Below, piece after piece: positions 21,251-56,796 of a stretch of DNA of 64,000 nt. Position 1 is the first letter of the stretch; the number at the start of each line of letters is the position of its first letter. The stretch comes from Ruminococcaceae bacterium BL-6 (lineage in GTDB: Bacteria; Bacillota; Clostridia; Oscillospirales; Acutalibacteraceae): the NCBI GenBank assembly GCA_902810075.1, contig LR778135.1, positions 558,001 to 622,000 of the forward strand. Reading direction: 5' to 3'. Position numbers and translations under genes: made by a program. The notes below the pieces were generated by a model. It worked only from the letters and a program-made list of their open reading frames with translations, was not told where the DNA came from and searched no databases.

Positions 21251-21288
21251 TTTGATTCTGTTTTCAAATTGCTCCATCGATCATATTC

Positions 21289-39486: not shown

Positions 39487-40668
39487 TCACTTCAGCGCCG
39501 ATTCCGACTCGGCACTTTCCGTCAGGCTGGCGGCCCGTTGCTTATTGATCTGATGAATCCGCCAGGGAGCAAAGACCAGGCCGCCAACAATAAAGGTGGG
39601 AATGCGAAGGAACGAGATGAGCTGATATCCCTTCGTGACCAGAGCGACGACGCCAAGCTGCGCCAGAAGCAGCGACACACCCAGAAGAACGGTCCCGAAA
39701 ATCATGTCCACAACAGCCTGGTTATACTTTTTTCTGGGGTTAAACCAGGGCCCGAAGCGCGCGCAGACAGCCACCACGTCCGACATGGAAACATAGGCCA
39801 AAAACAGGCCCACGCTGTAAATGACGGACAAAATACCAGTAGAACCAAAACGCTCGACGATCATGTCATAAATCGGAATCACGCTTGTGCTGATCCCGGG
39901 CATGCGGGACAGAACGGCGAGAGAAACGACAAACAGCATAAATCCATTGAGAAAGCCGCCGAAAATAGCCATCACCTTATTGTCATTTTTACTGGTGAAT
40001 TTTCCCGAAATCGCTATGTAAGCACTGCAAAATCCAACCTGTATGCCGGTATACCACAACATATCACCGATTGCCGATCCCGTTGAAACGTTGAACGTCT
40101 CTTTGGTCTGTACAATATGCGTCACACCGGACCAGTTCTCTTTCAGCAGAATAGCCGCCACGATGAGAATGCAGGAAGTCATGATCACGCCGAGAGGCAG
40201 GTCGATTTTCGCCATTATGGTCGCGCCGAACATGGAGATCGCGACAACAATCAGCAGGCACAGAAGCGTTCCAAGAAAATAATTCATACCCAAAGCCTGA
40301 TTCAGAAAGGTTCCCGCGCCGGCAAGCACCGTGCTGCTGTTTACCAGGAGGGAGACCAAGACGATCACGTCGAAAACAACCACCATCACTTTTCCGACGG
40401 CTTCTTTTTTGGAATACAGCGAGAACGCCACGTCCTTGTAGCTGTCGGCGCGAATCAGACGCGAATATTCTCCCATGTAGTAAAAAACGAAACCAAGAAT
40501 AATAAATGGGATGATCGTGGTGACAAGCGACAGCCATCCTGCCCTTGTAAAATATTTTAATAAAGTTAAACCGGAGCAAAACCCCGCTCCGCAATGATTG
40601 CCAAACCATGCAAAAGCAGCGCCGATTGCTACTACCCACTGAACTTTGGGCTGATTGACCTTTTTCAT
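39487..40668 (-). CDS. YkvI-type multi-pass membrane transporter
   Basis: 393 residues with about ten helices. The N-terminal QWVVAIGAAFAWFGNHCGAGFCSG and the helix-rich body fit the YkvI family of the APC superfamily, whose substrates are largely unknown. The ATG at 40668 has GAGGAG 8 bases upstream; the track-style GTG at 40674 is less likely. Lies 237 bases downstream of the 3-hydroxyacyl-CoA dehydrogenase gene, likely the last gene of the sigma-54-driven minus-strand unit. It could bring in the fermented amino or hydroxy acid or export an acid; this is inferred. Confidence 0.8.
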   Translation of the reverse strand: MKKVNQPKVQWVVAIGAAFAWFGNHCGAGFCSGLTLLKYFTRAGWLSLVTTIIPFIILGFVFYYMGEYSRLIRADSYKDVAFSLYSKKEAVGKVMVVVFDVIVLVSLLVNSSTVLAGAGTFLNQALGMNYFLGTLLCLLIVVAISMFGATIMAKIDLPLGVIMTSCILIVAAILLKENWSGVTHIVQTKETFNVSTGSAIGDMLWYTGIQVGFCSAYIAISGKFTSKNDNKVMAIFGGFLNGFMLFVVSLAVLSRMPGISTSVIPIYDMIVERFGSTGILSVIYSVGLFLAYVSMSDVVAVCARFGPWFNPRKKYNQAVVDMIFGTVLLGVSLLLAQLGVVALVTKGYQLISFLRIPTFIVGGLVFAPWRIHQINKQRAASLTESAESESALK

Positions 40669-40905
40669 CTTCACATCTCCTCAATATTGATGATATTGCC
40701 TGCACCCACAGGCTCTGAAAGGTTGCTTTGACAAAGAAACGCGCTGTTTTTTCACGAAACCTTTTTCAGCAAGATGGCTCCCGAATTCCTCCCCCTTTCC
40801 TTATCGTCCATGGGATCGGTCCGTGGGCGGCATCCCTTTTATGTATGACGCCGTGAACGCCGCGCAGACAGCGGCGCTTTCACCTTGACCGAAACCGGGC
40901 GGCTT
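40669..40905 (-). other. Intergenic leader of the YkvI-type gene
   Basis: 237 bases without a gene. One GC-rich hairpin GCGCCGC/GCGGCGT-type stem lies at about 40857-40880, just after the dehydrogenase stop. No clear promoter or riboswitch was recognised. Confidence 0.35.
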
Positions 40906-41805
40906 TCAACCCTTATTTTTGCCGGTTCCGGAATAGTCATACCAGCCCTTACCGGTTTTTCTCCCAAACTCGCCCTTCTGAAACTTTTCTACGACCAGAG
41001 GGCTGGGCTTGTCATACTCGTCGCCGCTCTCAGCATAGCGGTCCCGGCGAACATAGTAATTGACGTCGATACCGGTCAGGTCCATCAGGCGGAAGGGGCC
41101 CATGGGGTACCCCAGCCCCTTTTCACAGGCGGTGTCGATGTCCTCGACCGAAGCGATGCCCTTTTCCAGCAGGGAGCAGGCCTCGTGGGTTACCGCGGCG
41201 TTGATTCGGTTGGCCACAAAGCCGGCGATCTCCTTGTTGATGACGATGGGAGATTTTCCAGTATTGACGGCAAAAGCCCTGGCGGTCTCGACCGTTTCCG
41301 GTGCGGTATGCGGGCTGCGGACCAGCTCCACGAGCTGCATCACCAAGGCGGGGTTGAAGTAATGGATATTCAGCAGGCGCTGGGGGTTCCGGGTGACGTC
41401 GGCCAGCTTGGAGCTGACGATATTGGAGCTGTTGGTCCCCAGAATGGCGTCCGGCTTGCACAGCTTGCTGATCCGCCCGAACAGCTCCCGCTTGATCTCG
41501 AGATTTTCGATAATGGCTTCGATGACAAAATCGGCTTGGGCTGCCGTCCCATCCACATCCCGGGAGAAGGACAGGCTGGCCGATATCCGGTCGGCCTCGG
41601 CCTGCGTGACGCGGCCCTTGGCCACCCGGCCCGCCAGATAGTCGGCGGCCCATTTTTGCGCTTTTTCCACCGCGCTGGGGAAGGAATCGCAGAGGATGAC
41701 CTGATAGCCGCTGGCCCGGCCGTTGAGAGCGGTGTTCATGGCGATCTGCTGACCCATGGCTCCGGCGCCGATTACAACGATGGTTTTGACCTGTTCGATG
41801 TTCAT
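40906..41805 (-). CDS. hbd: 3-hydroxyacyl-CoA (3-hydroxybutyryl-CoA) dehydrogenase
   Basis: NAD(P)-dependent interconversion of 3-hydroxyacyl-CoA and 3-oxoacyl-CoA. 299 residues: dinucleotide site VIGAGAMGQQIA, catalytic region LGTNSSNIVSSKLADVTRNP, IHYFNPALVMQLVELV with the catalytic His, KEIAGFVANRI, and the C-terminal GLGYPMGPFRLMDLTGID. The ATG at 41805 has GAGGT 7 bases upstream. Downstream of the thiolase gene by 41 bases. Chain-length preference cannot be read. Confidence 0.93.
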   Translation of the reverse strand: MNIEQVKTIVVIGAGAMGQQIAMNTALNGRASGYQVILCDSFPSAVEKAQKWAADYLAGRVAKGRVTQAEADRISASLSFSRDVDGTAAQADFVIEAIIENLEIKRELFGRISKLCKPDAILGTNSSNIVSSKLADVTRNPQRLLNIHYFNPALVMQLVELVRSPHTAPETVETARAFAVNTGKSPIVINKEIAGFVANRINAAVTHEACSLLEKGIASVEDIDTACEKGLGYPMGPFRLMDLTGIDVNYYVRRDRYAESGDEYDKPSPLVVEKFQKGEFGRKTGKGWYDYSGTGKNKG

Positions 41806-41846
41806 TTGATACACCTCATTTTATATAAAAGTCATCAGGATTGGAA

Positions 41847-43040
41847 TCACAGCTTTTCAATGATTGTGGCCATGGACTGTCCGCCACCGATACACAGGGT
41901 GGCCAGCCCGTATCGGCCGCCGGTGCGCTGAAGGTTGTGCAGCAGAGTGATGATCAGGCGGGTGCCGGTGCTGCCCAGGGGGTGCCCCAGAGCGATGGCT
42001 CCTCCGTTGATGTTGACCTTCTCCGGATCAAGGCCCAGATCCCGGATACAAGCCACCGCCTGGGAGGCAAAGGCCTCGTTCAGCTCCACTAGGTCCATCT
42101 GCTCCACGGTCATCCCGGTGCGCTCCATCACCCTGCGGGTAGCGTACACCGGGCCATAGCCCATAATGGTCGGGTCCAGGGCGGCTCTGGCAACGCCCAC
42201 GATCCGGGCCAAAGGCTTCAGCCCTGTCTCATTCATCCTGTGCCCGGACATCAGGACCAGGGCGGAGGCGCCGTCGTTGAGGCCGCAGGAGTTGCCGGCG
42301 GTCACCGTCCCGCCGGGCTTGACGATGGAGCGCAGCTTGGCCAGCACTTCCATGGTGGTCCCGGCCCGGGGAAACTCGTCCGTATCGAAGACGAAGGTGC
42401 GCTTTTTCTCTTTCACCTCCACGGGGATGATCTCTTTTTTGAAGTGGCCCGCCGCAATGGCGGCGGCAGCCCTGCGCTGGCTCTCCACAGCGAAGGCATC
42501 CTGCTGCTCCCGTGTGATATGGAAACGCTCGGCTACGTTTTCTGCAGTCCTGGTCATGCTCAGGCCGGGGCCGTAGATGGAGGCGGGAGCCGCAGTGCTG
42601 CCGGCTTCGATGTTGGAGTCCACCAGCACCATGGGACCGTCGCCCCAGCGCCCTTGACGGATGTACATGGGGGCGCGGCTCATGTTCTCCGTGCCGCCTG
42701 CCACGATGACGTCAGCCTGGCCGCACCAGATCTCCTGACAGCCGCAGAGCGTGGCCTGCATGGCGGAGGCGCACAGCCGGTTCACGGTGAAGCCGGGCAC
42801 GTTCTCCGGCAGGCCGGCCTCGAGGGCGGCGCACCGGGCGATGTTGGAGGCCTCGGTGCTCTGCCGCACTTCGCCGAGAATGACCTCGTCTATCCATTCT
42901 TTATTCACACCGGCGCGGCGCACCGCCTCTTTGATTACCAGCGCGCCCATCGTATGGGCCGGTACGCTCTTCAGCGAACCGCCGTATTTTCCTACGGCTG
43001 TGCGGACGGCGCCCATGATATAAACGTTTTCCATTGCCAT
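41847..43040 (-). CDS. Thiolase (acetyl-CoA C-acyltransferase)
   Basis: Cleaves 3-oxoacyl-CoA with CoA, or condenses two acyl-CoA molecules in reverse. 397 residues with all catalytic motifs: Cys90 in [32 protein letters not shown] (His), and CIGGGQ (Cys). AAAGGGG precedes the ATG. First gene of the minus-strand unit, about 80 bases from a -24/-12 promoter. Placed beside crotonase and dehydratase genes, cleavage of a 3-oxoacyl-CoA formed by the cluster is the likely direction. Confidence 0.94.
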
Positions 43041-43118
43041 AACAGAGATTCCCCTTTCACAATGCCCTGCCGCAGCGCGGCAGACTCAATTGGTGCATGT
43101 TCTATATCAACGTAGTAA

Positions 43119-43135
43119 AGCAATCTCTGTGCCAA
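43119..43135 (-). promoter_or_regulatory. Sigma-54 promoter for thiolase-hbd-transporter
   Basis: On the minus strand TTGGCAC-N5-TTGCT with the invariant GG and GC exactly 10 bases apart, a full match to the -24/-12 consensus. Confidence 0.85.
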
Positions 43136-43321
43136 ATCGATTTCTGCCCGAAGAAAATAACAAAATGAATACGGAAGCTTCCGTTTCCCTTCTTCGGGAT
43201 TCCGCCGTTTTTGGATATTTTCCGGACACAGGCTGATCTCTCCGCTCCTGAACCTTCCATCAAAAATTTTTTTTCGTTTGGTTCAAACAGATTGATACGC
43301 CGATACGGGCGGTGGTTCCCA

Positions 43322-43377
43322 AGTGCAAATGCACAATCAATTGTGCATTTGCACTTTCTGTGCAATTTTGTTGCACA
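43322..43377. promoter_or_regulatory. Probable shared upstream activator sequence (UAS)
   Basis: A perfect 16-2-16 palindrome, AGTGCAAATGCACAAT / ATTGTGCATTTGCACT (43322-43355), is followed at once by TGTGCAA-TTTTG... closing with TTGCACA (43359-43377). It lies about 187 bases from each of the two divergent sigma-54 promoters, which fits binding of the cluster's own activator. Confidence 0.75.
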
Positions 43378-43483
43378 ATGTTTTTTGATTTTATCTATTT
43401 TTGTGACTTTATCCGTGGCCGGGAATCCGGATGACACGGCGTTTTACGTCCAGCTCTTTTGAACCCGATAAAATTTGCGCCCC

Positions 43484-43531
43484 AAGCCGGGTCGGCCTGC
43501 CGGAACTTTTCCGGCGGCCCCCGGCTTCTTT
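43484..43531 (+). terminator. Hairpin between UAS and plus-strand promoter
   Basis: AAGCCGGG...CCGGCTT with an inner GCCGGAA/TTTCCGGC stem, followed by CTTTTAT. It would block read-through from the left and insulate the sigma-54 promoter. Confidence 0.5.
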
Positions 43532-43563
43532 TATAGGTAAAACCTTTCAATGGGGGGAACTGT

Positions 43564-43580
43564 TTGGCACGTTTTTTGCT
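43564..43580 (+). promoter_or_regulatory. Sigma-54 promoter for the crotonase-dehydratase genes
   Basis: TTGGCAC-GTTTT-TTGCT, with GG and GC 10 bases apart; the same -24/-12 core as the minus-strand promoter. Confidence 0.87.
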
Positions 43581-43648
43581 GATTCATGGTGGGTAGAAAC
43601 ATACAGGGAGCCTGTCTCCGCTGAATGATGGAAAGGAGATTGAAGACA

Positions 43649-44437
43649 GTGGGAATAAAATTCGAAAATATTCTCTACGAAATCCGGGATGGCATTTTAT
43701 ATCTGACCCTGAACCGCCCGGAGGCCCGCAATGCCCTTACTCCGGAAATGTGGAAGGACATCAGCGCCGCTGTTCAGTGCGCCCGGGAGGATGACCTCGT
43801 CAGGGTGGTCATCGTTACCGGCGCCGGAGAAAAGGCCTTGGCCAGCGGCGCGGATATCCGCGAAATCCATGACCGGGACTATCTGAAGATGCTGCTGGGT
43901 ACGGCGCCGGCGGCTCTGAAAGATCTGGAGGATCTGTATAAGCCTGTCATCTGCGCCATCAACGGCTATGCCCTGGGGGGTGGCTGCGAGCTGGCCATGG
44001 CCTGTGATATCCGCATCGCCACCGGGCGCTCCAAGCTCGGGCAGCCCGAACTTGGCCTGAGCATCATTCCCGGCGCCGGAGGGACCCAGCGGCTGAGCCG
44101 GCTGGTGGGGCTGGGCAGGGCCAGGGAACTGATCTACACCGGAAAAATCATCACCGCACAGGAGGCTCAGGCCATCGGTCTGGTCAACCAGGTGACCGAG
44201 GACGACCGGGGTTCCCTGATGGCCGCGGCGGAGGAGATGGCGCGCCAGATTATGGCCAAGGGGCCGGTGGCTGTCACCATGGCGAAAATGGCCATCAATC
44301 TCGGCTACGAGACCGACATCAATACCGGCCTGATGATCGAGCGCCTGGCTCAGACCATCGCGTTCAGCACCGAGGACAGGAAAGAGGGGACCGCCGCTTT
44401 TCTGGAAAAGCGTCCCGCCCGCTTCAAAGGACGCTGA
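43649..44437 (+). CDS. Enoyl-CoA hydratase (crotonase)
   Basis: Hydrates 2-enoyl-CoA to 3-hydroxyacyl-CoA. 262 residues from a GTG at 43649, 10 bases after AAGGAG; ATG at 43625 would add eight residues without a site. Motifs: NRPEARNALTPEMW, ASGADIREI (oxyanion loop), NGYALGGGCELAMACD (first catalytic Glu) and GQPELGLSIIPGAGGTQRL (second catalytic Glu). The protein ends FKGR, as crotonases do. First gene of the plus-strand unit. Confidence 0.93.
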   Translation: MGIKFENILYEIRDGILYLTLNRPEARNALTPEMWKDISAAVQCAREDDLVRVVIVTGAGEKALASGADIREIHDRDYLKMLLGTAPAALKDLEDLYKPVICAINGYALGGGCELAMACDIRIATGRSKLGQPELGLSIIPGAGGTQRLSRLVGLGRARELIYTGKIITAQEAQAIGLVNQVTEDDRGSLMAAAEEMARQIMAKGPVAVTMAKMAINLGYETDINTGLMIERLAQTIAFSTEDRKEGTAAFLEKRPARFKGR

Positions 44438-44520
44438 AGCGCCGGAATATCAAAGTGGGCCGGCACGCTGGCCGCGCCGGCCCCCGAATCAAGCAGGAAA
44501 GCTTTAAGGAGGATATTTTT

Positions 44521-45723
44521 ATGAGACCGATGGAAAACATTCGCGTGGTAGAGTTGTCCACGATGCTGGCCGGCCCTATGACCGCCCGGATTTTGGCCGA
44601 GTGGGGCGCGGACGTCGTCAAGGTGGAGTCTGTAAACGGCGACGCGTGGCGCAAGCAGGCGGGTACTACGCTTTCCCCCTGCACAAAAGACGCAAACCCC
44701 AATTTCGATGTGCAGAACATGAACAAGCGCTTTGTCTGCCTGAATCTGCGGACAGAGGCAGGGCGGGCCGCCATGAGGAAGCTTCTGTCCGGGGCGGATG
44801 TCTTTGTCACCAACTACCGCGTTCAGGCACTGGAGGCCATGGGCCTTACTTACGACCAGCTGAAAGGGGAGTTTCCCCGCCTGATCCATGCCTCCGTGCT
44901 GGGCTATGGCAGCGAGGGAAAGGAGAGCTCCCGCCCCGGATATGACTACACCGTATTCTTTGCCCGAACTGGTCTGATGGCTGACCTGGCCCCGGCCGGC
45001 GGCCCGCCTCTTATCCCCGTGGGAGGAATCGGCGACCACAGCGTGGCCGTCGCTCTGTCCGGGGGAATCGCCGCCGCGCTTTATCAAAGATCCGTTACAG
45101 GGCAGGGCGATAAGGTGGATGTCTCCCTGCTGCAGGCGGGCACCTTCATTCTCTGCACGGGTATCTTAAACGGCTTTAACGGGCGCAAGCTGCCCCGGGA
45201 CCGTTATGACTGCGGGCACGCCGGCAGCAACACCTACCGGGGGTCCGACGGGGAATGGTTTTATCTTGCCATCATAGATTACCGGCGATTTCCCGAATTC
45301 TGCCAGGTGATCGGCCTGCCAGAGATCGCCGCGGACCCCAGATTCTCCACCGTGGATTCGTACTACAGGAACAGAAGCGAGCTGACCAGGATCCTGGATA
45401 AAAAATTTGCGGAACAGCCGGTCTTTTACTGGCATGAGTTGTTGGATGCCCACGACCTTCCGCATGAAGTTTTGTATCACTTCAAGGATGTCCCCTATGA
45501 CCCGCAGGTGCAGGCGAACCATTACACCTATTTCCATGAATATTCGGACGGAACCAGGACCGTATTCGCCAATGGCCCGGTCCACTTCGGCTCCATCGAC
45601 CCGTCCGCGATCCCCTGCCGGACATCCGGCCCCATCGGTCGGGATACGGATGAGGTCCTGAAGGAGCTGGGTTATACGGATGACCAGATCCATACCATGC
45701 ATCAGTCCGAAGAAATCAAATGA
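44521..45723 (+). CDS. hadA: Class III CoA-transferase (HadA/FldA-like)
   Basis: Moves CoA from an acyl-CoA to a 2-hydroxyacid, activating it for dehydration. 400 residues of the CaiB/BaiF family: ENIRVVELSTMLAGPMTARILAEWGADVVKVE at the N terminus (shown here in two halves), NKRFVCLNLR, and a GYDYTVFFARTGLM region with the probable catalytic Asp142. AAGGAGG precedes the ATG. A GC-rich hairpin (44459-44485) separates it from crotonase. Neighbours are the activator and dehydratase, so a HadA/FldA role is well supported; symbol by homology of context. Confidence 0.9.
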   Translation: MRPMENIRVVELSTMLAGPMTARILAEWGADVVKVESVNGDAWRKQAGTTLSPCTKDANPNFDVQNMNKRFVCLNLRTEAGRAAMRKLLSGADVFVTNYRVQALEAMGLTYDQLKGEFPRLIHASVLGYGSEGKESSRPGYDYTVFFARTGLMADLAPAGGPPLIPVGGIGDHSVAVALSGGIAAALYQRSVTGQGDKVDVSLLQAGTFILCTGILNGFNGRKLPRDRYDCGHAGSNTYRGSDGEWFYLAIIDYRRFPEFCQVIGLPEIAADPRFSTVDSYYRNRSELTRILDKKFAEQPVFYWHELLDAHDLPHEVLYHFKDVPYDPQVQANHYTYFHEYSDGTRTVFANGPVHFGSIDPSAIPCRTSGPIGRDTDEVLKELGYTDDQIHTMHQSEEIK

Positions 45724-45742
45724 CCGCCCGAAAGGAGACCCT

Positions 45743-46540
45743 ATGTATACTCTCGGAATCGACATCGGTTCCACTTCCAGCAAGGCAGCAATCCTGCAGA
45801 ACGGGGATGAGCTTGTCGCCCACGCGGTAGAACCGTTGGGCACCGGCACGGAAGGCCCCCGGCACGCTCTGGAAAAGGCGTTCGGCCTGTGCGGCCTTTC
45901 CCAGGAGGATATCAGCTATACGGTGGCTACGGGCTACGGCCGGATGAACTGCGATTGCGCCGACGAGCAGATCAGCGAGCTGAGCTGCCACGCAAAGGGG
46001 ATTCATTTCCTGCTGCCCACCGTACGTACCGTCATCGATATCGGCGGTCAGGACGCCAAGGCGCTGAGCATCACGGACGAGGGACAGCTTACCGCGTTCC
46101 AGATGAACGACAAATGCGCGGCGGGCACGGGCCGCTTCCTCGACGTGATGGCTCGGGTCCTGGATGTGGAGATCAGCGAACTGGGCCCTTTATCCCAGAA
46201 ATCCCGGCATCCGGTCAGCATCAGCAGCACCTGCACGGTGTTCGCCGAATCGGAGGTGATCTCTCAGCTGTCTTCCAAGGTGCCCATTGAAGACATTGCG
46301 GCGGGAATTCACAGCTCGGTGGCCAAACGCGTGGCCGGAATGTCGCTGCGCCTGAAGCAAACCCCCGACTTGGCCATGAGCGGGGGGGTCGCCCTGAACA
46401 TCGGGGTGGTCCATGCCATGGAGCAGGAGATGGGATGCCGGATTCTGGTTCATCCGCTGTGCCAGTCGGCGGGCGCCATAGGCGCCGCCGTTCTGGCATG
46501 GGAAAAACGAAAAAAGGAGAAGGTTGATTATCATGAGTGA
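45743..46540 (+). CDS. hadI: 2-hydroxyacyl-CoA dehydratase activating ATPase (HadI/FldI)
   Basis: Homodimeric [4Fe-4S] ATPase that injects one high-energy electron into the dehydratase. 265 residues of the BcrAD/BadFG fold: LGIDIGSTSSKA phosphate loop, TVIDIGGQDAK, and the cluster cysteines in NDKCAAGTGRFLD and SSTCTVFAESEV. The C-terminal GGVALNIGV and GAIGAAVLA motifs are typical. The ATG at 45743 has AAAGGAG 5 bases upstream. It overlaps the next gene by 8 bases. Confidence 0.95.
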   Translation: MYTLGIDIGSTSSKAAILQNGDELVAHAVEPLGTGTEGPRHALEKAFGLCGLSQEDISYTVATGYGRMNCDCADEQISELSCHAKGIHFLLPTVRTVIDIGGQDAKALSITDEGQLTAFQMNDKCAAGTGRFLDVMARVLDVEISELGPLSQKSRHPVSISSTCTVFAESEVISQLSSKVPIEDIAAGIHSSVAKRVAGMSLRLKQTPDLAMSGGVALNIGVVHAMEQEMGCRILVHPLCQSAGAIGAAVLAWEKRKKEKVDYHE

Positions 46541-47825
46541 ACATACAACCGCGGCGGAAGCCGCCGCACCCGCGCCGAAGCCCAGGCGTCCAAAGCCAAA
46601 GTCCATGATCATGCTGGGCGAGCAGACCCAGGCGCTGTTTGACAATGCCCGGCTGGCCAAAGAACGGGGCGAAAAGGTAGGATGGTCCGCCTCGATCTTC
46701 CCCCAGGAGATCGCCGAGACCCTGGGGCTGAACGTGCTGTATCCGGAAAATCACGCCGCTGGCATCGCGGCCCGCCACCAGGCGGATCCTTTCCTGCAGG
46801 AGTGCGAAGGGCCTTTGGGCTACTCCAACGACCTGTGCGCCTACGCCAAGCTGAACTTGGCTTACGCCTCCGTTCTCAACGGCGAAAGCGGGGTGGAGCT
46901 GCCCGACGGGGGCAAGATGGTCAAACCCGACTTCCTGCTGCTGACCAACAACATCTGCAACCAGCTGACCAAGTGGTACGAGAATCTGGCTGAGCAGATG
47001 AACATCCCTGTTTTCTTCATCGACACCTGCTACAATCCCTATGATTATGTGACTGAGAGCCGGGTGCGCTATGTCCGCGCACAAATCGACCAGCTGATTC
47101 AGGATCTGTGCGCCTTTACCGGAAAGTCCTGGGATGAGGAGCGGTTCCGGAAGGTGATGAAGATCTCCCAGCGCAACAGCTGTCTGTGGGAGCGGGCCAA
47201 CGATCTGCTGGACCGCAGGCCCTCCCCCCTGAGCGGATTCGAACTGTTCAACTACATGTCCGCAATGGTGTGCAACCGGGGCAAGGAATCCTCCACCGCC
47301 ATTCTGGAGCAGCTGAACGCCGAGATTGAGCAGCACATCGCCGAGGGGACCTCCACTTTCCCTGTGGAGGAGCAGTTCCGGGTCTCGTGGGATGGCATCG
47401 CCTGCTGGCCCTATCTCAGCCACAATCTGCGCACGATGAAAAAATACGGCATCAACATGGTTGCCTCCAGCTACGGAAAGGCATGGGCGATCGAATATGA
47501 GGATCTGGACGGCATGGCCCGGGCCTACTGCTTCGCCTCCACCAACGGCGACAATGCCACCACCATGATCGCGCGGCGGCTGGAGGCCCTGAAGAAGTTC
47601 GGCTGCGAGGGCACCATCTATCATGTCAACCGTAGCTGCAAGGTGATGGACTGTCAGATGATGGAGGTTCAGCGCCAGCTTTCCGAGCTGGCGGGCGTCC
47701 CCTTTGCCTCCTTCGACGGCGACCAGGCGGATTACCGCAACTACAGCGAAGCCCAGTTTGAAACCCGCATCCAGGGCTTGGTGGAAGTCATGAGCCAAAA
47801 TAAGGAGGCGAAGGGCAATGACTGA
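46533..47825 (+). CDS. hadB: 2-hydroxyacyl-CoA dehydratase alpha subunit (HadB/FldB)
   Basis: Iron-sulfur subunit that removes water from (R)-2-hydroxyacyl-CoA by a ketyl-radical mechanism. 430 residues. Family features: ERGEKVGWSASIFPQEIAETLG, VLYPENHAAGIAAR, YSNDLCAYAKLNLA, LTNNICNQLTKWYE, GIACWPYLSH, HVNRSCKVMDCQM and SFDGDQADYRNYSEAQ. The N terminus carries an Ala/Pro/Lys-rich extension of about 25 residues. ATG at 46533 is 13 bases from AAGGAG; a TTG at 46524 is 4 bases from it, so the true start is uncertain by three codons. Confidence 0.94.
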   Translation: MSEHTTAAEAAAPAPKPRRPKPKSMIMLGEQTQALFDNARLAKERGEKVGWSASIFPQEIAETLGLNVLYPENHAAGIAARHQADPFLQECEGPLGYSNDLCAYAKLNLAYASVLNGESGVELPDGGKMVKPDFLLLTNNICNQLTKWYENLAEQMNIPVFFIDTCYNPYDYVTESRVRYVRAQIDQLIQDLCAFTGKSWDEERFRKVMKISQRNSCLWERANDLLDRRPSPLSGFELFNYMSAMVCNRGKESSTAILEQLNAEIEQHIAEGTSTFPVEEQFRVSWDGIACWPYLSHNLRTMKKYGINMVASSYGKAWAIEYEDLDGMARAYCFASTNGDNATTMIARRLEALKKFGCEGTIYHVNRSCKVMDCQMMEVQRQLSELAGVPFASFDGDQADYRNYSEAQFETRIQGLVEVMSQNKEAKGND

Positions 47826-48948
47826 TCTGGATCAAAACATTTCCATGCTGCAGCAGGCCTGCGCCAATCCCCGGGAGCGGCTGGAGCACTATCTGAACCA
47901 GGGCAAAAAGGTCGTCGGGTGCTTTCCCTACTATTCCCCTGAGGAGCTGGTCCACGCTTCCGGCATGATCCCCATGGGCATGTGGGGCGGCCGGACCGAA
48001 TGGAAGCTGGCCAAGAGCTATTTGCCCGCCTTTGCCTGCCCCATCATGCAGTCCAACATGGAATTCGGCCTGAAAGGCACCTATGAGGGGATGTCCGCCG
48101 TCATTATCCCGGCCATCTGCGACACCCTGCGCTGCATGACCCAAAACTGGCGCTTCGGCGTGCCTTCCATTCCCATGATTCCCATTGTCTATCCCCAGAA
48201 CCGCACCTCTCCCGCCAGCGTGGATTACCTGATCAGCGAATTTGAGACCGTGCTGACCATGCTTTACACCATCACCGGCAGGATGATGAACGAAGCCGCC
48301 CTGGGCGAAACCATCCGGATCTACAACGAGCACAACGCCGTAATGCGGGAGTTTTCCGCCGTATCGGTGGACCACCTGGATGTGATCACCCCCAGGGTCC
48401 GCCACGCGGTGATGAAAAGCGCCTTTTTCTATGAGAAAAGTGAGCATACCGCCATAGTCCGGGAGATTGTGGATGCATTGAAACAGCAGCCAGCCTACTC
48501 TTACCCCGGGAAAAAGGTGATTCTCACCGGTATCTCCTGCGAGCCGGATGATATGCTGGACATTCTGACCGAAAACCAGCTTGCCGTGGTGGGGGACGAC
48601 CTGGCTCAGGAGATGCGCCAGTACCGCGCCGATACTCCGCTGAAAGGGGGCGGTGGCCTGAAACGGCTGGCCCTGCAGTGGAACAACCGATACGGCTGCA
48701 GCCTGATCCACACGCTGGGCAAGCCTCGGGGCGGCATGCTGGTCAACCTGTGCAGGGAGACCGGGGCACAGGGGGTCGCGATGTGCATGATGAAGTTCTG
48801 CGATCCGGAGGAGTACGACCAGCCCTATGTTGAGGCTGACCTGCGGCAGGCGGGCATTCCCTGCCTGTCCGTCGAAGTGGACCAGCAGAACGGCAGCTTC
48901 GAGCAGTTCCGCACCCGTCTGCAGGCGTTCTGCGACATGATGGGATGA
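47818..48948 (+). CDS. hadC: 2-hydroxyacyl-CoA dehydratase beta subunit (HadC/FldC)
   Basis: Partner of hadB, carrying the second [4Fe-4S] cluster. 376 residues: CFPYYSPEELVHASGMIPMGMWGG, SYLPAFACPIMQSNME, PAICDTLRCMTQNW, HPQNR-like YPQNRTSP, SCEPDDMLDIL, DDLAQEMRQYR and MMKFCDPEEYDQP. AAGGAGG precedes the ATG, which overlaps hadB by 8 bases. Together with hadA and hadI it completes the set needed for dehydration of a 2-hydroxyacid. The natural substrate is not set by the sequence. Confidence 0.94.
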   Translation: MTDLDQNISMLQQACANPRERLEHYLNQGKKVVGCFPYYSPEELVHASGMIPMGMWGGRTEWKLAKSYLPAFACPIMQSNMEFGLKGTYEGMSAVIIPAICDTLRCMTQNWRFGVPSIPMIPIVYPQNRTSPASVDYLISEFETVLTMLYTITGRMMNEAALGETIRIYNEHNAVMREFSAVSVDHLDVITPRVRHAVMKSAFFYEKSEHTAIVREIVDALKQQPAYSYPGKKVILTGISCEPDDMLDILTENQLAVVGDDLAQEMRQYRADTPLKGGGGLKRLALQWNNRYGCSLIHTLGKPRGGMLVNLCRETGAQGVAMCMMKFCDPEEYDQPYVEADLRQAGIPCLSVEVDQQNGSFEQFRTRLQAFCDMMG

Positions 48949-49059
48949 CGGCCTGCTCCCAAATTTTTTTGTTGTAAATGGATGCCATTTCTTAGCCTTT
49001 TCGCGGCATTTGTGATATGATATGCATAACTTTTGATCCGATAGAGGAGGCATGGTCAG

Positions 49060-50502
49060 ATGCAGGATTTTTCGTCCTTTCAAGAGTTGTGCCAGGAATT
49101 GCCCTTCACAGAAATTCTGGATAATATCGACACCGGGATCGCCCTCTACGATGCACAGGGGAACTTTATTTTCATGAACACCGTCATGGTCAACTGGAGG
49201 AATATTCCCCGGAGGGAATACCTGAAGATGAATGTCCATGACTTCAGCCATGTCCTGGACGTGTGTGTGTTCGACCTGGTCTGCCGGAAAAAGCGCCGGG
49301 TCAGCCGTTTGCAGTACTACAAGGATTTCCAGCAGGTGGATGGCCCCACCCGGATGCGCATCGTCATCGGCACCCCTATTTTCGATGGCCAGGGCAATGT
49401 GAAGTATGTCATCATCACGCTGCAGGATGTCCAGGATTTCGAGAACCTGTATCACACCCTGCTCAATGATCACAAAATCCTGGAATCCAGAGAAATAGGC
49501 CAGACGGAAAAGGTCAGCATCATCGCCAGGAGCCAGGAATTCCGGAAGCTGCTCTCGGTAGCCGACAGCATCGCGCCCCTGGACTCCACTGTGCTGATCT
49601 ATGGGGAATCCGGTTGCGGCAAAGAGGTCATCGCCCATTACATCCACGAGCACAGCGACCGAAAAAACAGGCCTCTCATCACCGTCAACTGCGCTGCTTT
49701 TCCGGAGAATCTGATTGAGGCGGAGCTGTTCGGCTACGAGAAGGGGAGCTTCACCGGAGCCAATCGGGAGGGCAAGACAGGCTTGGTGGAGGCTGCCGAC
49801 GGCGGTATCCTGTTTCTGGATGAGCTCAACTCCCTCCCCATGAATGTACAGGGCAAGATGCTGCGTTGTCTGGAGGAAAAGAGCGTCCAGCGGATCGGCG
49901 CCACCCGGGCCAAGAAGGTGGACTTTCGCCTGATCACCGCCACCAATCAGGATCTGGAGGAAATGGTCCGCCGGGGCACCTTCCGCGAGGATCTGTACTA
50001 CCGTATCCATGTCATCCCCCTGACTATCCCGCCGGTGCGGGAGCGCAAGGAGGACATCGTCCCCCTCTGCCTTTATTTTCTCCACCACTTCTGTCAGAAG
50101 TATAATCTTCAAAAGAGTTTTTCTGACGAGGTGCTGGAGGAGGTCCGGAGCTATAATTGGCCCGGAAATGTCCGGGAAATCAGGAATTTTGTGGAGCGGA
50201 TGGTGGTCATGACCCCACACGCCACCCGGGAAATCAGCAACATTCCATCGGGCATGCTGTCCAATGAGTCTGATCCCGCGCGGCAGCCGGCCCAGCCTGC
50301 CGCGCTTTCCGCCCAGAGCCATCCCAGACAGCGCTCGGATGGCCCGAGCCGGGATGAGGTGCTGGTCGCCCTGGCCACTTGTGGCAACCATAGGGAAAAA
50401 GCGGCGCAATATCTGGGAATCTCCCGCCGGAAGCTGCAGTACAAGATTCGGGAGTACCACCTTCCATCCCGCTGCCACTATCAGGATGAGAATCCAGAAT
50501 AA
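49060..50502 (+). CDS. Sigma-54-dependent transcriptional activator with PAS domain
   Basis: 480 residues: a PAS sensor (about 20-130), AAA+ domain (about 160-390) with Walker A GESGCGKE, the sigma-54-contacting loop GSFTGA (usual GAFTGA, A to S), Walker B GGILFLDELN, and an R-finger region RGTFREDLYYRI; then a Fis-type helix-turn-helix at the C terminus (NHREKAAQYLGISRRKLQYKI). GAGGAGG lies 9 bases upstream of the ATG. Lying between hadC and the hydroxyacid dehydrogenase, and with two -24/-12 promoters at the head of the cluster, it is very likely their activator. The PAS ligand may be a pathway acid or its CoA ester; this is inferred. Confidence 0.92.
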   Translation: MQDFSSFQELCQELPFTEILDNIDTGIALYDAQGNFIFMNTVMVNWRNIPRREYLKMNVHDFSHVLDVCVFDLVCRKKRRVSRLQYYKDFQQVDGPTRMRIVIGTPIFDGQGNVKYVIITLQDVQDFENLYHTLLNDHKILESREIGQTEKVSIIARSQEFRKLLSVADSIAPLDSTVLIYGESGCGKEVIAHYIHEHSDRKNRPLITVNCAAFPENLIEAELFGYEKGSFTGANREGKTGLVEAADGGILFLDELNSLPMNVQGKMLRCLEEKSVQRIGATRAKKVDFRLITATNQDLEEMVRRGTFREDLYYRIHVIPLTIPPVRERKEDIVPLCLYFLHHFCQKYNLQKSFSDEVLEEVRSYNWPGNVREIRNFVERMVVMTPHATREISNIPSGMLSNESDPARQPAQPAALSAQSHPRQRSDGPSRDEVLVALATCGNHREKAAQYLGISRRKLQYKIREYHLPSRCHYQDENPE

Positions 50503-50516
50503 TTGGCCGTATCCGA

Positions 50517-50558
50517 AAAAGCGTCTCCGGTTTATCAAAAAAACCGGGGACGCTTTTA
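50517..50558 (+). terminator. Terminator after the activator gene
   Basis: AAAAGCGTCTCCGGTT pairs with AACCGGGGACGCTTTT (one G-T) and is followed by TACTT. It separates the dehydrogenase gene as its own unit. Confidence 0.75.
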
Positions 50559-51130
50559 CTTGGCATTTTTTAAATTCTCCCACTTTTCTGCGGGTGCGAG
50601 AAAGAGCGTGATGCGCTTAGAGCACCGTGGCGACATGGCCAGACCCGCCTGACCGATTTGCCTGCACGTTTGCTGTTTTATTTCTGACCATCGGAAAAAT
50701 CCCTATAAAATATTCCGTAGCTTATATTTTGTTTGAGTTTTTTTGAGTTTATCCGTAGTGCATATTTTATTATAAATAAAAATATGATCCCGGATAGATC
50801 TGTTTTTTATCCTTTTTACAATTATCATAGATTACGGGCCTCATGACTGGTACTTATCTGGGCCGTTTTTGCCGGGTTGTCTTAGATTGAAGGGAGATAT
50901 GTCGGAATAAGCTTTTTCTATTAGACAAACCCATTTCTGTCTGCTATAATAATGGTGCTGTTTCCATGCGATTTTGTTTATTTTCCACTTTCCTGCCAAC
51001 AGGATCCGCTGGCCTTTTCTAACGCTGTCTCATGTTTATCGGTCGATTGATTCATAAAAAGGGGCGTTGCTTTCGCGATCAGAAGCGAAGCTCGCCGTGA
51101 AATTATGATACAGATGAAAGGAAGATTCTC
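50559..51130 (+). other. Long leader region of the hydroxyacid dehydrogenase gene
   Basis: 572 bases without a gene. The sequence is AT-rich from 50700 to 50850. A promoter TAGACA-17-TATAAT is at 50922-50950, leaving a ~175-base untranslated leader with a GCGATC/GAAGCGAAGC-type hairpin near 51070-51095. No -24/-12 element was found here. Confidence 0.5.
50922..50950 (+). promoter_or_regulatory. Sigma-A promoter of the hydroxyacid dehydrogenase gene
   Basis: TAGACA, 17 bases, TATAAT. It is of the ordinary type, unlike the sigma-54 promoters of the rest of the cluster. Confidence 0.75.
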
Positions 51131-52072
51131 ATGAAATGTCTCATTATTGACGCTGTCCATAGCTCTATTTCGGAAGAGCTGAGCAAGTACATGCAGGTCG
51201 ACACCCACATGCTCCCCACCCAGGCGGAGCTGGCCAAGCTGATCCCCGACTATGATGCGCTGGTCATGCGCGTGGACCCCGCCATCAACAAGGAGATTCT
51301 GGATGCCGCAAAGAAGCTGAAGGTCATCGGCGTATGCGCCGTCGGCCTGAACCATGTCGACCTGGATGCCGCCAAGGCGAAGGGCATTCAGGTGTTCAAT
51401 GCCCCGGGCTTGAACGCCAACGCCGTGGCCGAGCTGACCATCTCCAAGATGCTGGATCTGTCCCGCCACACCATTCCCGCCAATGCCGATGTCAAGGTCA
51501 ACCACAAGTGGGACAAATATAAGTTTGTGGGCCGCGAGCTGCGGGGCAAGACGCTGGGCATTTTGGGATTTGGCCGCATTGGGCGCCGTGTGGGCGAACT
51601 GGCCCGCGCTTTCAAAATGGACGTGGTGGCCTACGACCCCTATCTGAAGAGCGAGGACTTTGAAAAAGGGCACGCCAAGGGCATGAGCATAGACGAGGTG
51701 CTGAAGGTCTCCGACTTTGTCACCATCCACATGCCGCTCACCCCAGAGACCAAGAACCTGTTCAACGCCGAATCCATTGCCAAAATGAAGCCGGACGCCG
51801 CAGTGCTGAACATGAGCCGCGGGGGCATTGTCAACGAGCATGATATGTATGAGGCCCTGAAGGCCAAAAAGATCGGCGGCTACGCCTCCGACGTGATGGA
51901 AAACGAGCTGGCGGCCGGCGGCCTGTCCGAGGGCGCTGGATTTGTCTCGCCCCTGTTCGATTGCGACAACTTCATCGTCACTCCTCATCTGGGAGCTCAG
52001 ACCGTGGATGCATCCCGCGATATCGGCGAATACATCACCGGCAAGCTGAAGGAGACTTTGAACCTTCACTGA
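51131..52072 (+). CDS. ldhA: D-isomer-specific 2-hydroxyacid dehydrogenase
   Basis: Reduces a 2-oxoacid to the (R)-2-hydroxyacid with NADH. 313 residues: VGLNHVDLDAAKAKGI, the Rossmann motif GILGFGRIGRRV, SRGGIVNE holding the catalytic Arg, and TPHLGAQT holding the catalytic His with the Glu in between. AAAGGAAG precedes the ATG. In known hadAIBC clusters the neighbouring LdhA supplies the hydroxyacid, and this gene fits that role. Substrate not assigned. Confidence 0.93.
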   Translation: MKCLIIDAVHSSISEELSKYMQVDTHMLPTQAELAKLIPDYDALVMRVDPAINKEILDAAKKLKVIGVCAVGLNHVDLDAAKAKGIQVFNAPGLNANAVAELTISKMLDLSRHTIPANADVKVNHKWDKYKFVGRELRGKTLGILGFGRIGRRVGELARAFKMDVVAYDPYLKSEDFEKGHAKGMSIDEVLKVSDFVTIHMPLTPETKNLFNAESIAKMKPDAAVLNMSRGGIVNEHDMYEALKAKKIGGYASDVMENELAAGGLSEGAGFVSPLFDCDNFIVTPHLGAQTVDASRDIGEYITGKLKETLNLH

Positions 52073-53946: not shown

Positions 53947-56796
53947 TTGAAGATCAAACAGAAATGCCTTTCCCTGCTGCTTGCGCTGACCATGGTCCTC
54001 GGCACCGCTTTCAGCACCACGGCGTTTGCGGAGGAGGATGGGGAAGGAACCTCGTCAGTCGCCCCGGCAGAGGATTGGGAAGGTCCGGCGGGAGCACCTA
54101 GCGCATTAGAAGCAGATGATGAACAAGAATTTATTTTCCCGTTTACAACCACCGGTGCTGAGCTTTCGGGATTGGAACTTGACATTTATTTAGGTAACGA
54201 CGAAGATGGCGGCACAGTTGATTTAGAAAACAGGGGCGAAGGGGAAAATTATAGCGAAGAGTATAAAGAGGCAATACAGCTTAATCTCAACGCGGATAAA
54301 GATTCCGTTATTAAAAACGATGAAGATTCTTCCATCAACTTAGATACCTTGCAAAGTTATGAAGGGTCGGCCCACCAAGAAGAAATAAAAGGGTTATTAA
54401 TCAGTTTAAAAGCGAAATTAGCGGAAAATGGTTTTACAGAGGATCAGTCTGCAGCGGCAATTAAAAAGTGGATTGCATTCTATGAGGCGGCCGGCGTGGA
54501 ATTTGGTCATGAGCCATCCACGAGTACGGGAGCAGAAACAATAGCAGAAATTACAGCAGGCTCCGTCGAGAGGGTAAAAAGCAGCGTTTCCTATCAGGCT
54601 GACAATAGTGATGAGAAGGAAAAAGGTACATGGACGCTTACGCTGAATACGAAAAAGCTTCTGGACGCCGGTTTCACCGACATCCAATTCCTTGTTAAAG
54701 CCCAAGCCCAAGAAGGGGAGACGGTTGTGTCCTGGGGCAATAACAACTACAATGCGCTAGGGAAAGGTGAGCCCAAGGCTTATCTCTATACGATCACCGA
54801 GCCCGGAGATGATGGTGAAATCACAGACGAAACCGCTTTGAAAAAAGCGATCGAAAAGGCCAGCAATGGCGATACCATTATGCTCGGCGGTGATGTTGAC
54901 GTTTCCGAATCAATTGTCATCGATAAACCGCTTACCCTCGATGGAGACGGTTACACAATCAAGGCTGCCGATGGCAGTACATTCACCGCAAATTTAGGGG
55001 ATGACCCTGCCTGCGTCCTTTCCGTAACCGCTGATGACGTTGCCATTCAAGATGTCACGATTGACTGCAATGTTGACAACGTTACAATAGCACCGAATGA
55101 GACTACCGGCGGCGGAAAAGCGGACAATACCACTTATGCGGGTATCTACATCCAGCAAAAAACCGGTGTTGAATTGTCAGATGTAACGGTCAAAAATCTG
55201 AAAAAAGACGGTTACAGCTGGAATGAGGGTAATGCTTTCTATGGGATTTACATTAACGAGGAAGACCATAAAAAGCAGGGCACGAATGGCTCTTTTTCCT
55301 ATACTAAGGCACAAACTTCTGTGACGGTTGATAATCTTACCTTTGACAGCACGCTTGCCGGGGTTTATGTAAGGCCCGCCAGAGCAACAGCAACAGCAAC
55401 AGGTGAGGTTGATGAAAATACTCCTTTGCTGGAGGTGGGTTCTGAGGGCGTTACTTTAAAGAACAGCGTGTTGCCTTCCTCGCCCATTTTGGTTCAGCTG
55501 CGTACAACGCAGACAGATAGCAAAAGCGCCATTGATGCAGCGAAAAAATATGTTCAGTTCAGTGACGGCGATTCTGATAACTGGGTGGCGGCTTGGTTAG
55601 GTAATCTGGGAATAAATCAACGGGTTGCCTTTGCGCCCGACAGCGTTTTCTATTCCGCGGATTTGGAGTTAGAGGAAGATGAACAGCTTCCCTTAATGCC
55701 CCAGAGCACACCGGAGGAGATACAAAAAGCCATAACATGGTCAAGTGGTTCGAAGGACGTCGCAACAGTTCAGAACGGCGTCGTTACTCCCCTCAGCAAA
55801 GGTAAAGCCAACATTACCGCGACCATCGGTACGGGGGATCAGGCCATAACCGCAATTGTAATGATCAATGTCCTTGACAATGGTGAAACCCCTGCTCTGT
55901 ATTCCATCGGCGGAAAAGTGGATGCCGGTGAAACAGGGGCTTCCGTAAGCGGAATCACTGTCGATCTGTACGCCGCCGACGATACGGAACATGAAGCCCC
56001 TCTCGCCAGTGCGACTACCGACGAGAACGGTAAGTACTCTTTCACAGATAAGGTGGCGGCTGGAGAATATGTAGTCGTAGTTGCTGCTTCCGAAGGCAAA
56101 TATGCTGAATCTACGGCAAGTGTCACTGTCAACGACGCTGATGTGACCAACGCCGACATCACTCTGGTGAAAGAAACCTCCACCGACGATCATGATAACG
56201 ACCACCACAAGAATAGCGGCGGCTCCGGCTCCGGAAGCGGAAGCTCCGGCAGAGGCGGCCGTACGGTGATCGTAAGCGGCACGGCCCCCGACAACAAGCC
56301 GGTGGTCACTGTCGAGAACGATCCGCAGGGCAAGCCCGTCGTCACGGTAGGCGCAAGGCCCCTGCCGAACGCGAAGCCGCTGACCGCGGCGGACATCGCC
56401 AAAAAGGCGGCGGACGGCACCCTGAACGCCACAGTGAACCCCAACGGGGTTTGGGATGGCAGAACAGTAGGCGCGAAAAACATCGCGCTGGTGATCGACA
56501 CGAAAGAAGCGACGCTTGCCCCCGGCGGCTCCTATCAGCTGGGCGTCAGCGCTTTCGCCGGCCCGGCGGGCAGCACGCTGCGCGTCAGGGCGTCCCGCGA
56601 CGGATTTGTGACGATTACAGCGAACCCGGACGGCACCTACACGATTACGTCCAACAAGCCGGTCAGCGGCCTCTATATCCTCGTGGAGATTCTCGACGCC
56701 AACGGAAACGTGGTCGGGCATTCCTCCATGAAGCTGGACGCCGCGGCGGGCCTTGGCGTCAAACATGTGGAGAACAAGGCTGCGACGATCGTATAA
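53947..56796 (+). CDS. Large secreted/cell-surface protein with beta-helix and bacterial Ig-like domains
   Basis: 949 residues from a TTG start with AAAGGAG 10 bases upstream. A signal peptide (about 1-28, cleaved after TAFA) is followed by an acidic low-complexity segment. About 285-520 reads like a parallel beta-helix (ALKKAIEKASNGDTIMLGGDV, then repeated VT-x-D-N-x-T strands). A Big_2-type Ig domain (ITWSSGSKDVATVQ...) spans about 590-640 and a SpaA/carboxypeptidase-regulatory-like domain about 650-740. A His/Asp and Gly/Ser linker (about 740-770) leads to a C-terminal beta-rich domain with no LPXTG motif. The middle is visibly more AT-rich than the ends, so the gene looks mosaic. Probably an adhesin or S-layer-associated protein. 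Confidence 0.75.
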   Translation: MKIKQKCLSLLLALTMVLGTAFSTTAFAEEDGEGTSSVAPAEDWEGPAGAPSALEADDEQEFIFPFTTTGAELSGLELDIYLGNDEDGGTVDLENRGEGENYSEEYKEAIQLNLNADKDSVIKNDEDSSINLDTLQSYEGSAHQEEIKGLLISLKAKLAENGFTEDQSAAAIKKWIAFYEAAGVEFGHEPSTSTGAETIAEITAGSVERVKSSVSYQADNSDEKEKGTWTLTLNTKKLLDAGFTDIQFLVKAQAQEGETVVSWGNNNYNALGKGEPKAYLYTITEPGDDGEITDETALKKAIEKASNGDTIMLGGDVDVSESIVIDKPLTLDGDGYTIKAADGSTFTANLGDDPACVLSVTADDVAIQDVTIDCNVDNVTIAPNETTGGGKADNTTYAGIYIQQKTGVELSDVTVKNLKKDGYSWNEGNAFYGIYINEEDHKKQGTNGSFSYTKAQTSVTVDNLTFDSTLAGVYVRPARATATATGEVDENTPLLEVGSEGVTLKNSVLPSSPILVQLRTTQTDSKSAIDAAKKYVQFSDGDSDNWVAAWLGNLGINQRVAFAPDSVFYSADLELEEDEQLPLMPQSTPEEIQKAITWSSGSKDVATVQNGVVTPLSKGKANITATIGTGDQAITAIVMINVLDNGETPALYSIGGKVDAGETGASVSGITVDLYAADDTEHEAPLASATTDENGKYSFTDKVAAGEYVVVVAASEGKYAESTASVTVNDADVTNADITLVKETSTDDHDNDHHKNSGGSGSGSGSSGRGGRTVIVSGTAPDNKPVVTVENDPQGKPVVTVGARPLPNAKPLTAADIAKKAADGTLNATVNPNGVWDGRTVGAKNIALVIDTKEATLAPGGSYQLGVSAFAGPAGSTLRVRASRDGFVTITANPDGTYTITSNKPVSGLYILVEILDANGNVVGHSSMKLDAAAGLGVKHVENKAATIV

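Follow-up and report, generated by a model that had tools for sequence, protein, structure and literature searches.

A 2-hydroxyacyl-CoA dehydratase gene set that probably ends in thiolysis in Ruminococcaceae bacterium BL-6

In the single-contig genome (3.44 Mb) of Ruminococcaceae bacterium BL-6, a gut-type anaerobe, a 2-hydroxyacyl-coenzyme A (CoA) dehydratase is encoded together with a crotonase, a 3-hydroxyacyl-CoA dehydrogenase, and a thiolase. The set lies in the window analyzed here, a stretch of 64,000 nucleotides (positions 558001-622000 of the genome), to which the coordinates in Table 1 refer. It probably turns an amino-acid-derived 2-hydroxyacid into an enoyl-CoA, which would then be hydrated, oxidized, and split into two smaller acids; the probability that it is a sigma-54-controlled module for the fermentation of amino acids (or 2-hydroxyacids) ending in thiolysis is put at about 0.72. 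The identities of the genes, their conserved linkage, the promoter type they share, and a linked set devoid of acyl-CoA dehydrogenase and Etf genes are the sequence features on which this reading is built.

The predicted route would begin with an aminotransferase, encoded beside the cluster in some relatives and outside the window, which would convert the amino acid into the 2-oxoacid. D-2-hydroxyacid dehydrogenase would reduce the latter with NADH to the (R)-2-hydroxyacid, onto which the family III CoA-transferase would move CoA, probably from a product acyl-CoA. The activase-primed HGD-D dehydratase would then eliminate water by a radical mechanism, and the resulting 2-enoyl-CoA would be hydrated to 3-hydroxyacyl-CoA by the crotonase, oxidized to 3-oxoacyl-CoA by the NAD-dependent 3-hydroxyacyl-CoA dehydrogenase, and cleaved by the thiolase into acetyl-CoA and an acyl-CoA shortened by two carbons. 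From the 2-oxoacid onward, such a route would be redox neutral; one NADH would be gained if the amino group leaves via glutamate dehydrogenase. We infer the order and direction of the reactions, the redox balance, and the CoA donor by leaning on the established chemistry of these enzyme families. Because carbon 3 must be a CH2 group for the 3-hydroxy product to be oxidizable, the side chains of leucine, methionine, and the aromatic amino acids would fit, and valine and isoleucine would not.

Gene content and conservation of the set

All enzymes named in the initial annotation, which had been made from the letters alone (CoA-transferase, activase, both dehydratase subunits, crotonase, thiolase, and the dehydrogenases), were borne out by family searches. 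The plus strand carries crotonase, CoA-transferase, activase, alpha subunit, beta subunit, and a PAS-domain sigma-54 activator, in this order; the minus strand carries thiolase, 3-hydroxyacyl-CoA dehydrogenase, and a hydrophobic protein. The component D dehydratase with its activase is complete (two PF06050 subunits and one PF01869 activase). Residues S57, E75, C105, C145, and C372 of the alpha subunit are invariant among 12 aligned sequences and align to identical residues in the HadB structure 3o3m, where we take them to be the cluster cysteines and the active-site serine and glutamate. The motifs listed in Table 1 for the 3-hydroxyacyl-CoA dehydrogenase and the thiolase are likewise assumed to be functional, and the two crotonase glutamates presumably form the catalytic pair. 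Of acyl-CoA dehydrogenase and Etf domains, the genome has four and six matches, respectively, the latter as three neighboring pairs, and none of these lies inside the window, in agreement with the earlier remark that the block is free of them.

Table 1. Features of the gene set and its surroundings (window coordinates)
Feature	Position	Strand	Basis or remark
Hydrophobic membrane protein	39487..40674	-	Possible substrate transporter; no Pfam/NCBIfam family match
3-Hydroxyacyl-CoA dehydrogenase	40906..41814	-	Family searches; GAGAMG and HYFNP motifs present
Thiolase (acetyl-CoA C-acyltransferase)	41847..43040	-	Family searches; NRLCAS, NEAFA, GHPLG, LCIGGG present
Sigma-54 (-24/-12) site	43119..43134	-	Exact TGGCAC-N5-TTGCW, upstream of thiolase/dehydrogenase operon
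Perfect palindrome, 17-base arms	43321..43356		Between the two sigma-54 sites; likely activator site (predicted)
Sigma-54 (-24/-12) site	43565..43580	+	Exact TGGCAC-N5-TTGCW, upstream of crotonase/dehydratase operon
Crotonase (enoyl-CoA hydratase)	43625..44437	+	Family searches; Glu residues of PELGL and ARELIYTG present
Family III CoA-transferase (CoA_transf_3)	44521..45723	+	PF02515, 290 bits; start picked by eye (frame from 44455)
2-Hydroxyacyl-CoA dehydratase activase	~45743..46540	+	TIGR00241, 265 bits, cut-off 125; start picked by eye (frame from 45680)
2-Hydroxyacyl-CoA dehydratase alpha subunit (HGD-D)	46524..47825	+	Family searches, residue alignment
2-Hydroxyacyl-CoA dehydratase beta subunit (HGD-D)	47818..48948	+	Family searches
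PAS-domain sigma-54 activator, PrdR-like (below the cut-off of that model)	49060..50502	+	Family searches
Hairpin, terminator-like by eye	50517..50557	+	Between cluster and next gene
D-2-Hydroxyacid dehydrogenase (phosphoglycerate-dehydrogenase-like; D-isomer family)	51131..52072	+	Family searches

A scan of genome contigs yielded 35 loci, 12 with an alpha subunit 43-58% identical to that of the window and 23, referred to as related loci, with 64-100%; per related locus, at most 10 kb of DNA on each side was covered. The alpha subunit of an uncultured record (L030) is 100% identical; of the named isolates, Faecalispora jeddahensis (95%) and Clostridium sporosphaeroides (94%) come closest. Named hosts are, among others, Faecalispora, C. 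symbiosum, C. transplantifaecale, Flintibacter, Pseudoflavonifractor, Flavonifractor, Oscillibacter, and Acidaminococcus. Crotonase is present in 19 of the 23 related loci, thiolase in 18 (partial in L042), and 3-hydroxyacyl-CoA dehydrogenase in 17 (partial in L033 and L046). Wherever a beta-oxidation gene is missing, the contig or locus ends on the side that usually carries this gene: four loci (L030, L036, L039, and L051) have just 0.65-1.1 kb upstream of alpha, short of the usual place of crotonase, L033 stops before the thiolase, and L042 and L050 stop before the 3-hydroxyacyl-CoA dehydrogenase. Gene order varies between lineages. An activase match is missing from 15 of the 23 loci, so conservation is stricter for the beta-oxidation genes than for the activase of the dehydratase itself. 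The pairwise distances of six proteins correlate with r between 0.65 and 0.81 (15 pairs, 16 sequences). Among 147 genomes from the order and 391 from the class, a close dehydratase occurs in one each, in both cases the window's own; three further genomes of the 147 have a dehydratase at 57-58%. Among the 16 sequences, the alpha subunit is better conserved (mean 86%) than five partners (72-77%).

Queries for acyl-CoA dehydrogenase (one own protein and one from L054) and for Etf (one own pair) matched none of the 23 related loci within the DNA covered (at most 10 kb on each side). Two loci with an alpha subunit at 58% are composed differently: L054 matches both acyl-CoA dehydrogenase and Etf and L052 the dehydrogenase, while neither matches thiolase, crotonase, or 3-hydroxyacyl-CoA dehydrogenase. 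In each, the acyl-CoA dehydrogenase lies beside the alpha subunit, with a sigma-54-like site (defined below) ahead. The sister locus types differ in the companion genes of the dehydratase, and L052 and L054 look like the reductive type.

The remaining distant loci vary further. In L057, L059, L060, L061, and L064 (alpha 43-46%), the dehydratase is accompanied by 3-hydroxyacyl-CoA dehydrogenase and thiolase, with a crotonase match in L059 and L064; in L057, L061, and L064 there follow a CoA-transferase near the butyryl-CoA:acetate type, a class III aminotransferase, and an Fe-alcohol dehydrogenase, and loci of this type are possibly an omega-amino-acid version. L053 and L055 carry a tandem pair of alpha subunits ahead of a single beta subunit. 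In L058 (Desulfosporosinus), a protein of the NADH:flavin oxidoreductase family (14376-15386) is encoded downstream of activase and dehydratase, with a DEAD-box helicase gene between them, and is perhaps unrelated.

Genes for the predicted upstream steps adjoin the set in several related loci. A run of 12 co-directional frames with gaps below 120 bases in L037 (Flintibacter) starts with two D-2-hydroxyacid dehydrogenases, an aminotransferase, a 219-residue frame, an FAD protein, and a transporter-like protein without family match, and ends with crotonase, CoA-transferase, dehydratase, thiolase, and 3-hydroxyacyl-CoA dehydrogenase; an activase is not contained in this run. L035 and the near-identical L056 combine thiolase, 3-hydroxyacyl-CoA dehydrogenase, D-2-hydroxyacid dehydrogenase, aminotransferase, racemase, and antiporter in one run. 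Altogether, an aminotransferase lies nearby in eight related loci (L033, L035, L037, L044, L045, L046, L049, and L056); these are 53-99% identical to that of L035 (L035 included), with one or two D-2-hydroxyacid dehydrogenases alongside. L031 has a nearby D-2-hydroxyacid dehydrogenase without aminotransferase. A protein of the alanine racemase family is found in five loci (L035, L038, L045, L048, and L056); the one in L038 has its own sigma-54 site, and the one in L048 follows an NhaC-type antiporter that carries a sigma-54-like site. CitMHS/DASS-like transporters adjoin the set in four loci, in L043 together with a nickel-pincer isomerase that passes the group 22 racemase model (459, cut-off 400), a group without a named substrate in the part of PMC7583248 consulted. 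The neighbors in relatives suggest amino acids and 2-hydroxyacids as the substrate class. For naming the substrate itself, the structure and family matches of thiolase, 2-hydroxyacid dehydrogenase, crotonase, aminotransferase, racemase, and FAD protein were too general, and the three examples offered in the initial annotation (2-oxobutyrate, phenylpyruvate, and 2-oxoisocaproate) have the status of guesses.

Some candidates were set aside. The aminotransferase matches in L038 and L041 (24-25%) were not counted, as they represent a single gene cluster, the L041 member of which scores above cut-off on the PatB C-S lyase model; the GntC match of the aminotransferase was dropped (316 bits, cut-off 415); and the nickel-pincer racemase LarA of L041, although above its cut-off, was not assigned to the regulon because it lies behind a MarR gene. 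Beside the cluster in L041 (13498-20307), the PatB-type C-S lyase, an M20 amidohydrolase, LarA, a galactarate-dehydratase-like protein, and an AbgT transporter are encoded in a row. The FAD protein, with weak GidA/TrmFO similarity, recurs beside the cluster in L037 (5113-6393), L044, L046, L047, and L049, as does a transporter-like protein without Pfam match, and an IlvD/EDD dehydratase (12473-14155) lies between the beta subunit and the sigma-54 activator in L033.

Sigma-54 sites and palindrome of the divergent region

The initial annotation had described the two operons as governed by matched promoters, and exact TGGCAC-N5-TTGCW sites were indeed found before both crotonase and thiolase, each pointing outward from the 584-base divergent region. 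First-order Markov simulation gave a mean of 0.07 exact sites per window, and 0 of 100 simulations reached two or more. Genome-wide (3.44 Mb), three exact sites exist, two of them being the divergent pair, compared with two for the reversed-pattern control; the third sits within an open frame, and no frame of at least 90 residues begins just downstream. When one mismatch was allowed, the window contained three sites versus 1.95 expected (28 of 100 shuffles reached three), so only exactness and placement carry weight: the motif alone is not rare, but two exact facing sites within one intergenic region are.

For relatives, a site was considered sigma-54-like if it had at most two mismatches, kept GG and GC, and lay no more than 350 bases upstream. 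All 14 divergent loci have such a site ahead of thiolase, and 13 of them (12 under an alternative choice of start) have one ahead of crotonase; in the controls, it occurred in 5% of 4200 random 350-base stretches taken from these loci and in none of 53 stretches upstream of CoA-transferase, alpha, beta, or 3-hydroxyacyl-CoA dehydrogenase. The enzyme genes of L038 and L041 are co-directional, with such a site ahead of the thiolase-led run; L033 has one ahead of the run led by the CoA-transferase.

With as many as three mismatches allowed, the 34-base core of the palindrome between the two exact sites has a single occurrence in the genome. As a whole, the long palindrome is not conserved among relatives, and its half-words alone recur: TTGTGCA/TGCACAA was counted 22 times versus 0.65 expected in 14 divergent intergenic regions (the window and 13 relatives), and 13 times versus 0.35 after the three regions that had suggested the words were left out; three of the 14 regions contain none. 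The PAS/sigma-54 activator, whose own gene has no sigma-54-like site within 350 bases, is presumed to regulate both divergent operons. Joint sigma-54 control of the two, as one putative regulon, is supported by these sequence signals.

Paralogues and competing explanations

The fate proposed for the enoyl-CoA in the initial annotation, namely, to be hydrated, oxidized, and cleaved, is supported by the conserved gene linkage, by the sigma-54 control in common, and by the contrast to the sister loci with acyl-CoA dehydrogenase. The enzymes may be compared with those of a separate cluster at 141.5-161.4 kb (L065), composed as for the conversion of glutamate to butyrate. It comprises a 3-hydroxybutyryl-CoA dehydrogenase-like protein, thiolase, crotonase, acyl-CoA dehydrogenase, Etf, Carboxyl_trans, two CoA_trans (type I CoA-transferase) proteins, activase, and a second HGD-D pair. 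Thiolase and 3-hydroxyacyl-CoA dehydrogenase of the window are 49% and 39% identical, respectively, to their paralogues in this cluster. On the acetyl-CoA acetyltransferase model (cut-off 688), the window thiolase scores 428 bits and its paralogue 547; on the 3-hydroxybutyryl-CoA dehydrogenase model (cut-off 408), the window dehydrogenase scores 234 bits and its paralogue 399. The butyrate-type paralogues also fall below these four-carbon (C4) cut-offs, so just the score difference is informative. The separate butyrate-type set and the lower C4 scores make an exclusive C4 role of the window enzymes, which had been named as a possible objection, appear less likely. Another such objection, a co-regulated acyl-CoA dehydrogenase/Etf elsewhere in the genome, found no counterpart in exact sigma-54 sites or the palindrome, the two signals compared.

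We nevertheless regard as unlikely, rather than negligible, a C4 route in which 2-oxobutyrate from threonine or methionine would be reduced and dehydrated to crotonyl-CoA, which would disproportionate, part yielding two acetyl-CoA and the rest butyrate via Bcd-Etf. The window crotonase fits the short-chain model fairly well, acyl-CoA dehydrogenase and Etf genes adjoin a crotonase at 151.8-154.3 kb, and PMC8473912 and PMC10053330 (propionicum) are cited in its favor, the consulted part of the former treating acrylyl-CoA and that of the latter the product of 2-hydroxybutyryl-CoA. Yet the genome already has a C4-type set at 143-154 kb, thiolase and 3-hydroxyacyl-CoA dehydrogenase of the window fit C4 models worse than their paralogues do, the thiolase loop preceding TAENVA is unlike that of the paralogue, and the acyl-CoA dehydrogenase/Etf loci elsewhere in the genome have no exact sigma-54 site. 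Threonine and methionine lyase routes need no aminotransferase, so the one in eight of the 23 related loci would be superfluous. Improbable, too, is a 2-hydroxydicarboxylic acid such as 2-hydroxyadipate as substrate, with thiolysis to succinyl-CoA and acetyl-CoA. CitMHS-type anion transporters beside 3-hydroxyacyl-CoA dehydrogenase in four of the 23 loci (L034, L040, L043, and L048; Pfam assignment above cut-off in the two scanned) would suit it, as would the 3-oxoadipyl-CoA thiolase model, on which the window thiolase beats its paralogue (425 versus 393 bits); however, both scores are below the cut-off (597), the DASS model gives 106 of 199 bits, and alpha is nearest to leucine-type HadB (396 bits), with no hydroxyglutaryl-CoA dehydratase among the three structures matched.

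A reductive fate of the enoyl-CoA through an acyl-CoA dehydrogenase encoded elsewhere, as in had- or fld-like systems, with crotonase, thiolase, and 3-hydroxyacyl-CoA dehydrogenase doing other work beside the dehydratase, is very improbable: the genome does offer the four acyl-CoA dehydrogenase and six Etf matches, but crotonase is present in all 19 informative loci despite rearranged order, the genes share control of the sigma-54 type, and the enzymes form co-directional runs in L037, L038, L041, and L046. The opposite, biosynthetic direction, with thiolase joining acetyl-CoA and acyl-CoA and the chain leading to a 2-hydroxyacid, hardly deserves consideration; dehydratase and beta-oxidation steps are presumably reversible in principle, but thiolysis is strongly favored, and aminotransferase, racemases, and transporters of the relatives, together with the PAS activator, fit breakdown.

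A module ending in thiolysis has points against it as well. The 23 loci are not independent, L035/L056, L037/L046, L038/L041, and L044/L049 being alike and L030 100% identical in alpha. With near-duplicates removed (12 sequences, seven pairs), the distance correlation is lower (r 0.45-0.68; 0-14 of 999 permutations as high), and it is partly explained by common descent. A linked aminotransferase was not seen nearby in 15 of the 23 related loci, and the best relative of it in the window genome is just 39% identical. L037 and L046 have no sigma-54-like site at the places searched, and L042 has none before crotonase. The crotonase fits the short-chain model nearly like its paralogue (295 versus 322 bits), and an acyl-CoA dehydrogenase encoded elsewhere could use the same enoyl-CoA without shared sites. 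The D-2-hydroxyacid dehydrogenase, counted as a cluster member in the initial annotation, does lie on the same strand, but it is not contiguous, being separated from the beta subunit by the sigma-54 activator gene, the hairpin, and about 630 bases. Within 350 bases it has no sigma-54-like site (nor has the membrane protein), and neither of the two nearest named loci (L031 and L032) has it at the equivalent position; its membership in the pathway is plausible.

The hydrophobic membrane protein adjoins the enzyme set in the window, L031, and L032, and JGI names three of 31 homologues YkvI membrane protein. Elsewhere in the window, a thiamine pyrophosphate riboswitch (21144-21251, minus strand) and a large protein with Big_2 and carboxypeptidase-regulatory-like domains (53947-56796), perhaps a surface protein, were observed.

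Relation to known systems and possible meaning

Each enzyme is of a known kind, and the predicted thiolysis in place of enoyl-CoA reduction is what differs from the known relatives. With HadAIBC, which we take to be the (R)-2-hydroxyisocaproyl-CoA dehydratase cluster of C. difficile for leucine, the set has in common the family III CoA-transferase, the activase, and two HGD-D subunits, HadB (3o3m) being the nearest of the three matched structures. In place of acyl-CoA dehydrogenase/Etf, however, it contains crotonase, 3-hydroxyacyl-CoA dehydrogenase, and thiolase, and its subunits miss the HadB and HadC equivalog cut-offs (474 of 750 and 481 of 700 bits). FldAIBC, the phenyllactyl-CoA dehydratase cluster of C. 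sporogenes, likewise has the first half of the pathway in common with the window, but its second half is reductive. The hydroxyglutarate route of glutamate fermentation, in which crotonyl-CoA can partly be oxidized by crotonase, Hbd, and thiolase, also employs an HGD-D dehydratase; it uses a decarboxylase and Bcd-Etf, and a cluster of such composition lies separately in the genome, at 143-161 kb (L065). Neither a carboxyl-transferase decarboxylase nor a type I CoA-transferase is among the ten proteins of the window block, and unlike in the classical butyrate cluster (thl-hbd-crt-bcd-etf), no bcd or etfBA is linked.

Anaerotignum, according to the part of PMC10053330 consulted, converts threonine to butyrate via 2-hydroxybutyryl-CoA, with reduction of the enoyl-CoA by butyryl-CoA dehydrogenase, and its strains are described there as without thiolase. 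That route resembles the one proposed here in that a 2-oxoacid is reduced, CoA-transferred, and dehydrated to an enoyl-CoA; the window set differs by its thiolase and by having no linked butyryl-CoA dehydrogenase. Reduction is also the fate of the 2-enoyl-CoA in the reductive Stickland branch, as stated in the excerpt seen of PMC11574389. The putative gutSMASH class 'Others HGD unassigned', for which Table 2 of PMC9493362 in the portion viewed gives no product, is probably the bin for such a cluster, a bin rather than a pathway. Among the matches listed from the open-license literature, no title or start of an abstract dealt with a pathway from dehydratase to thiolysis. The odds are about even that the set represents an undescribed, CO2-free, and redox-neutral fermentation branch of gut members of several Clostridia families and of Acidaminococcus, in which a radical dehydratase would move the carbonyl from C2 to C3 ahead of thiolysis.

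If so, leucine, methionine, or an aromatic amino acid would be converted to acetyl-CoA and an acid two carbons shorter (benzoate from phenylalanine), and a dedicated oxidizing set would add another way of amino acid fermentation. Some of the HGD-type clusters left unassigned in gut bacteria could be explained by such sets, which could also supply the gut with short or aromatic acids from a bacterial source so far unsuspected.

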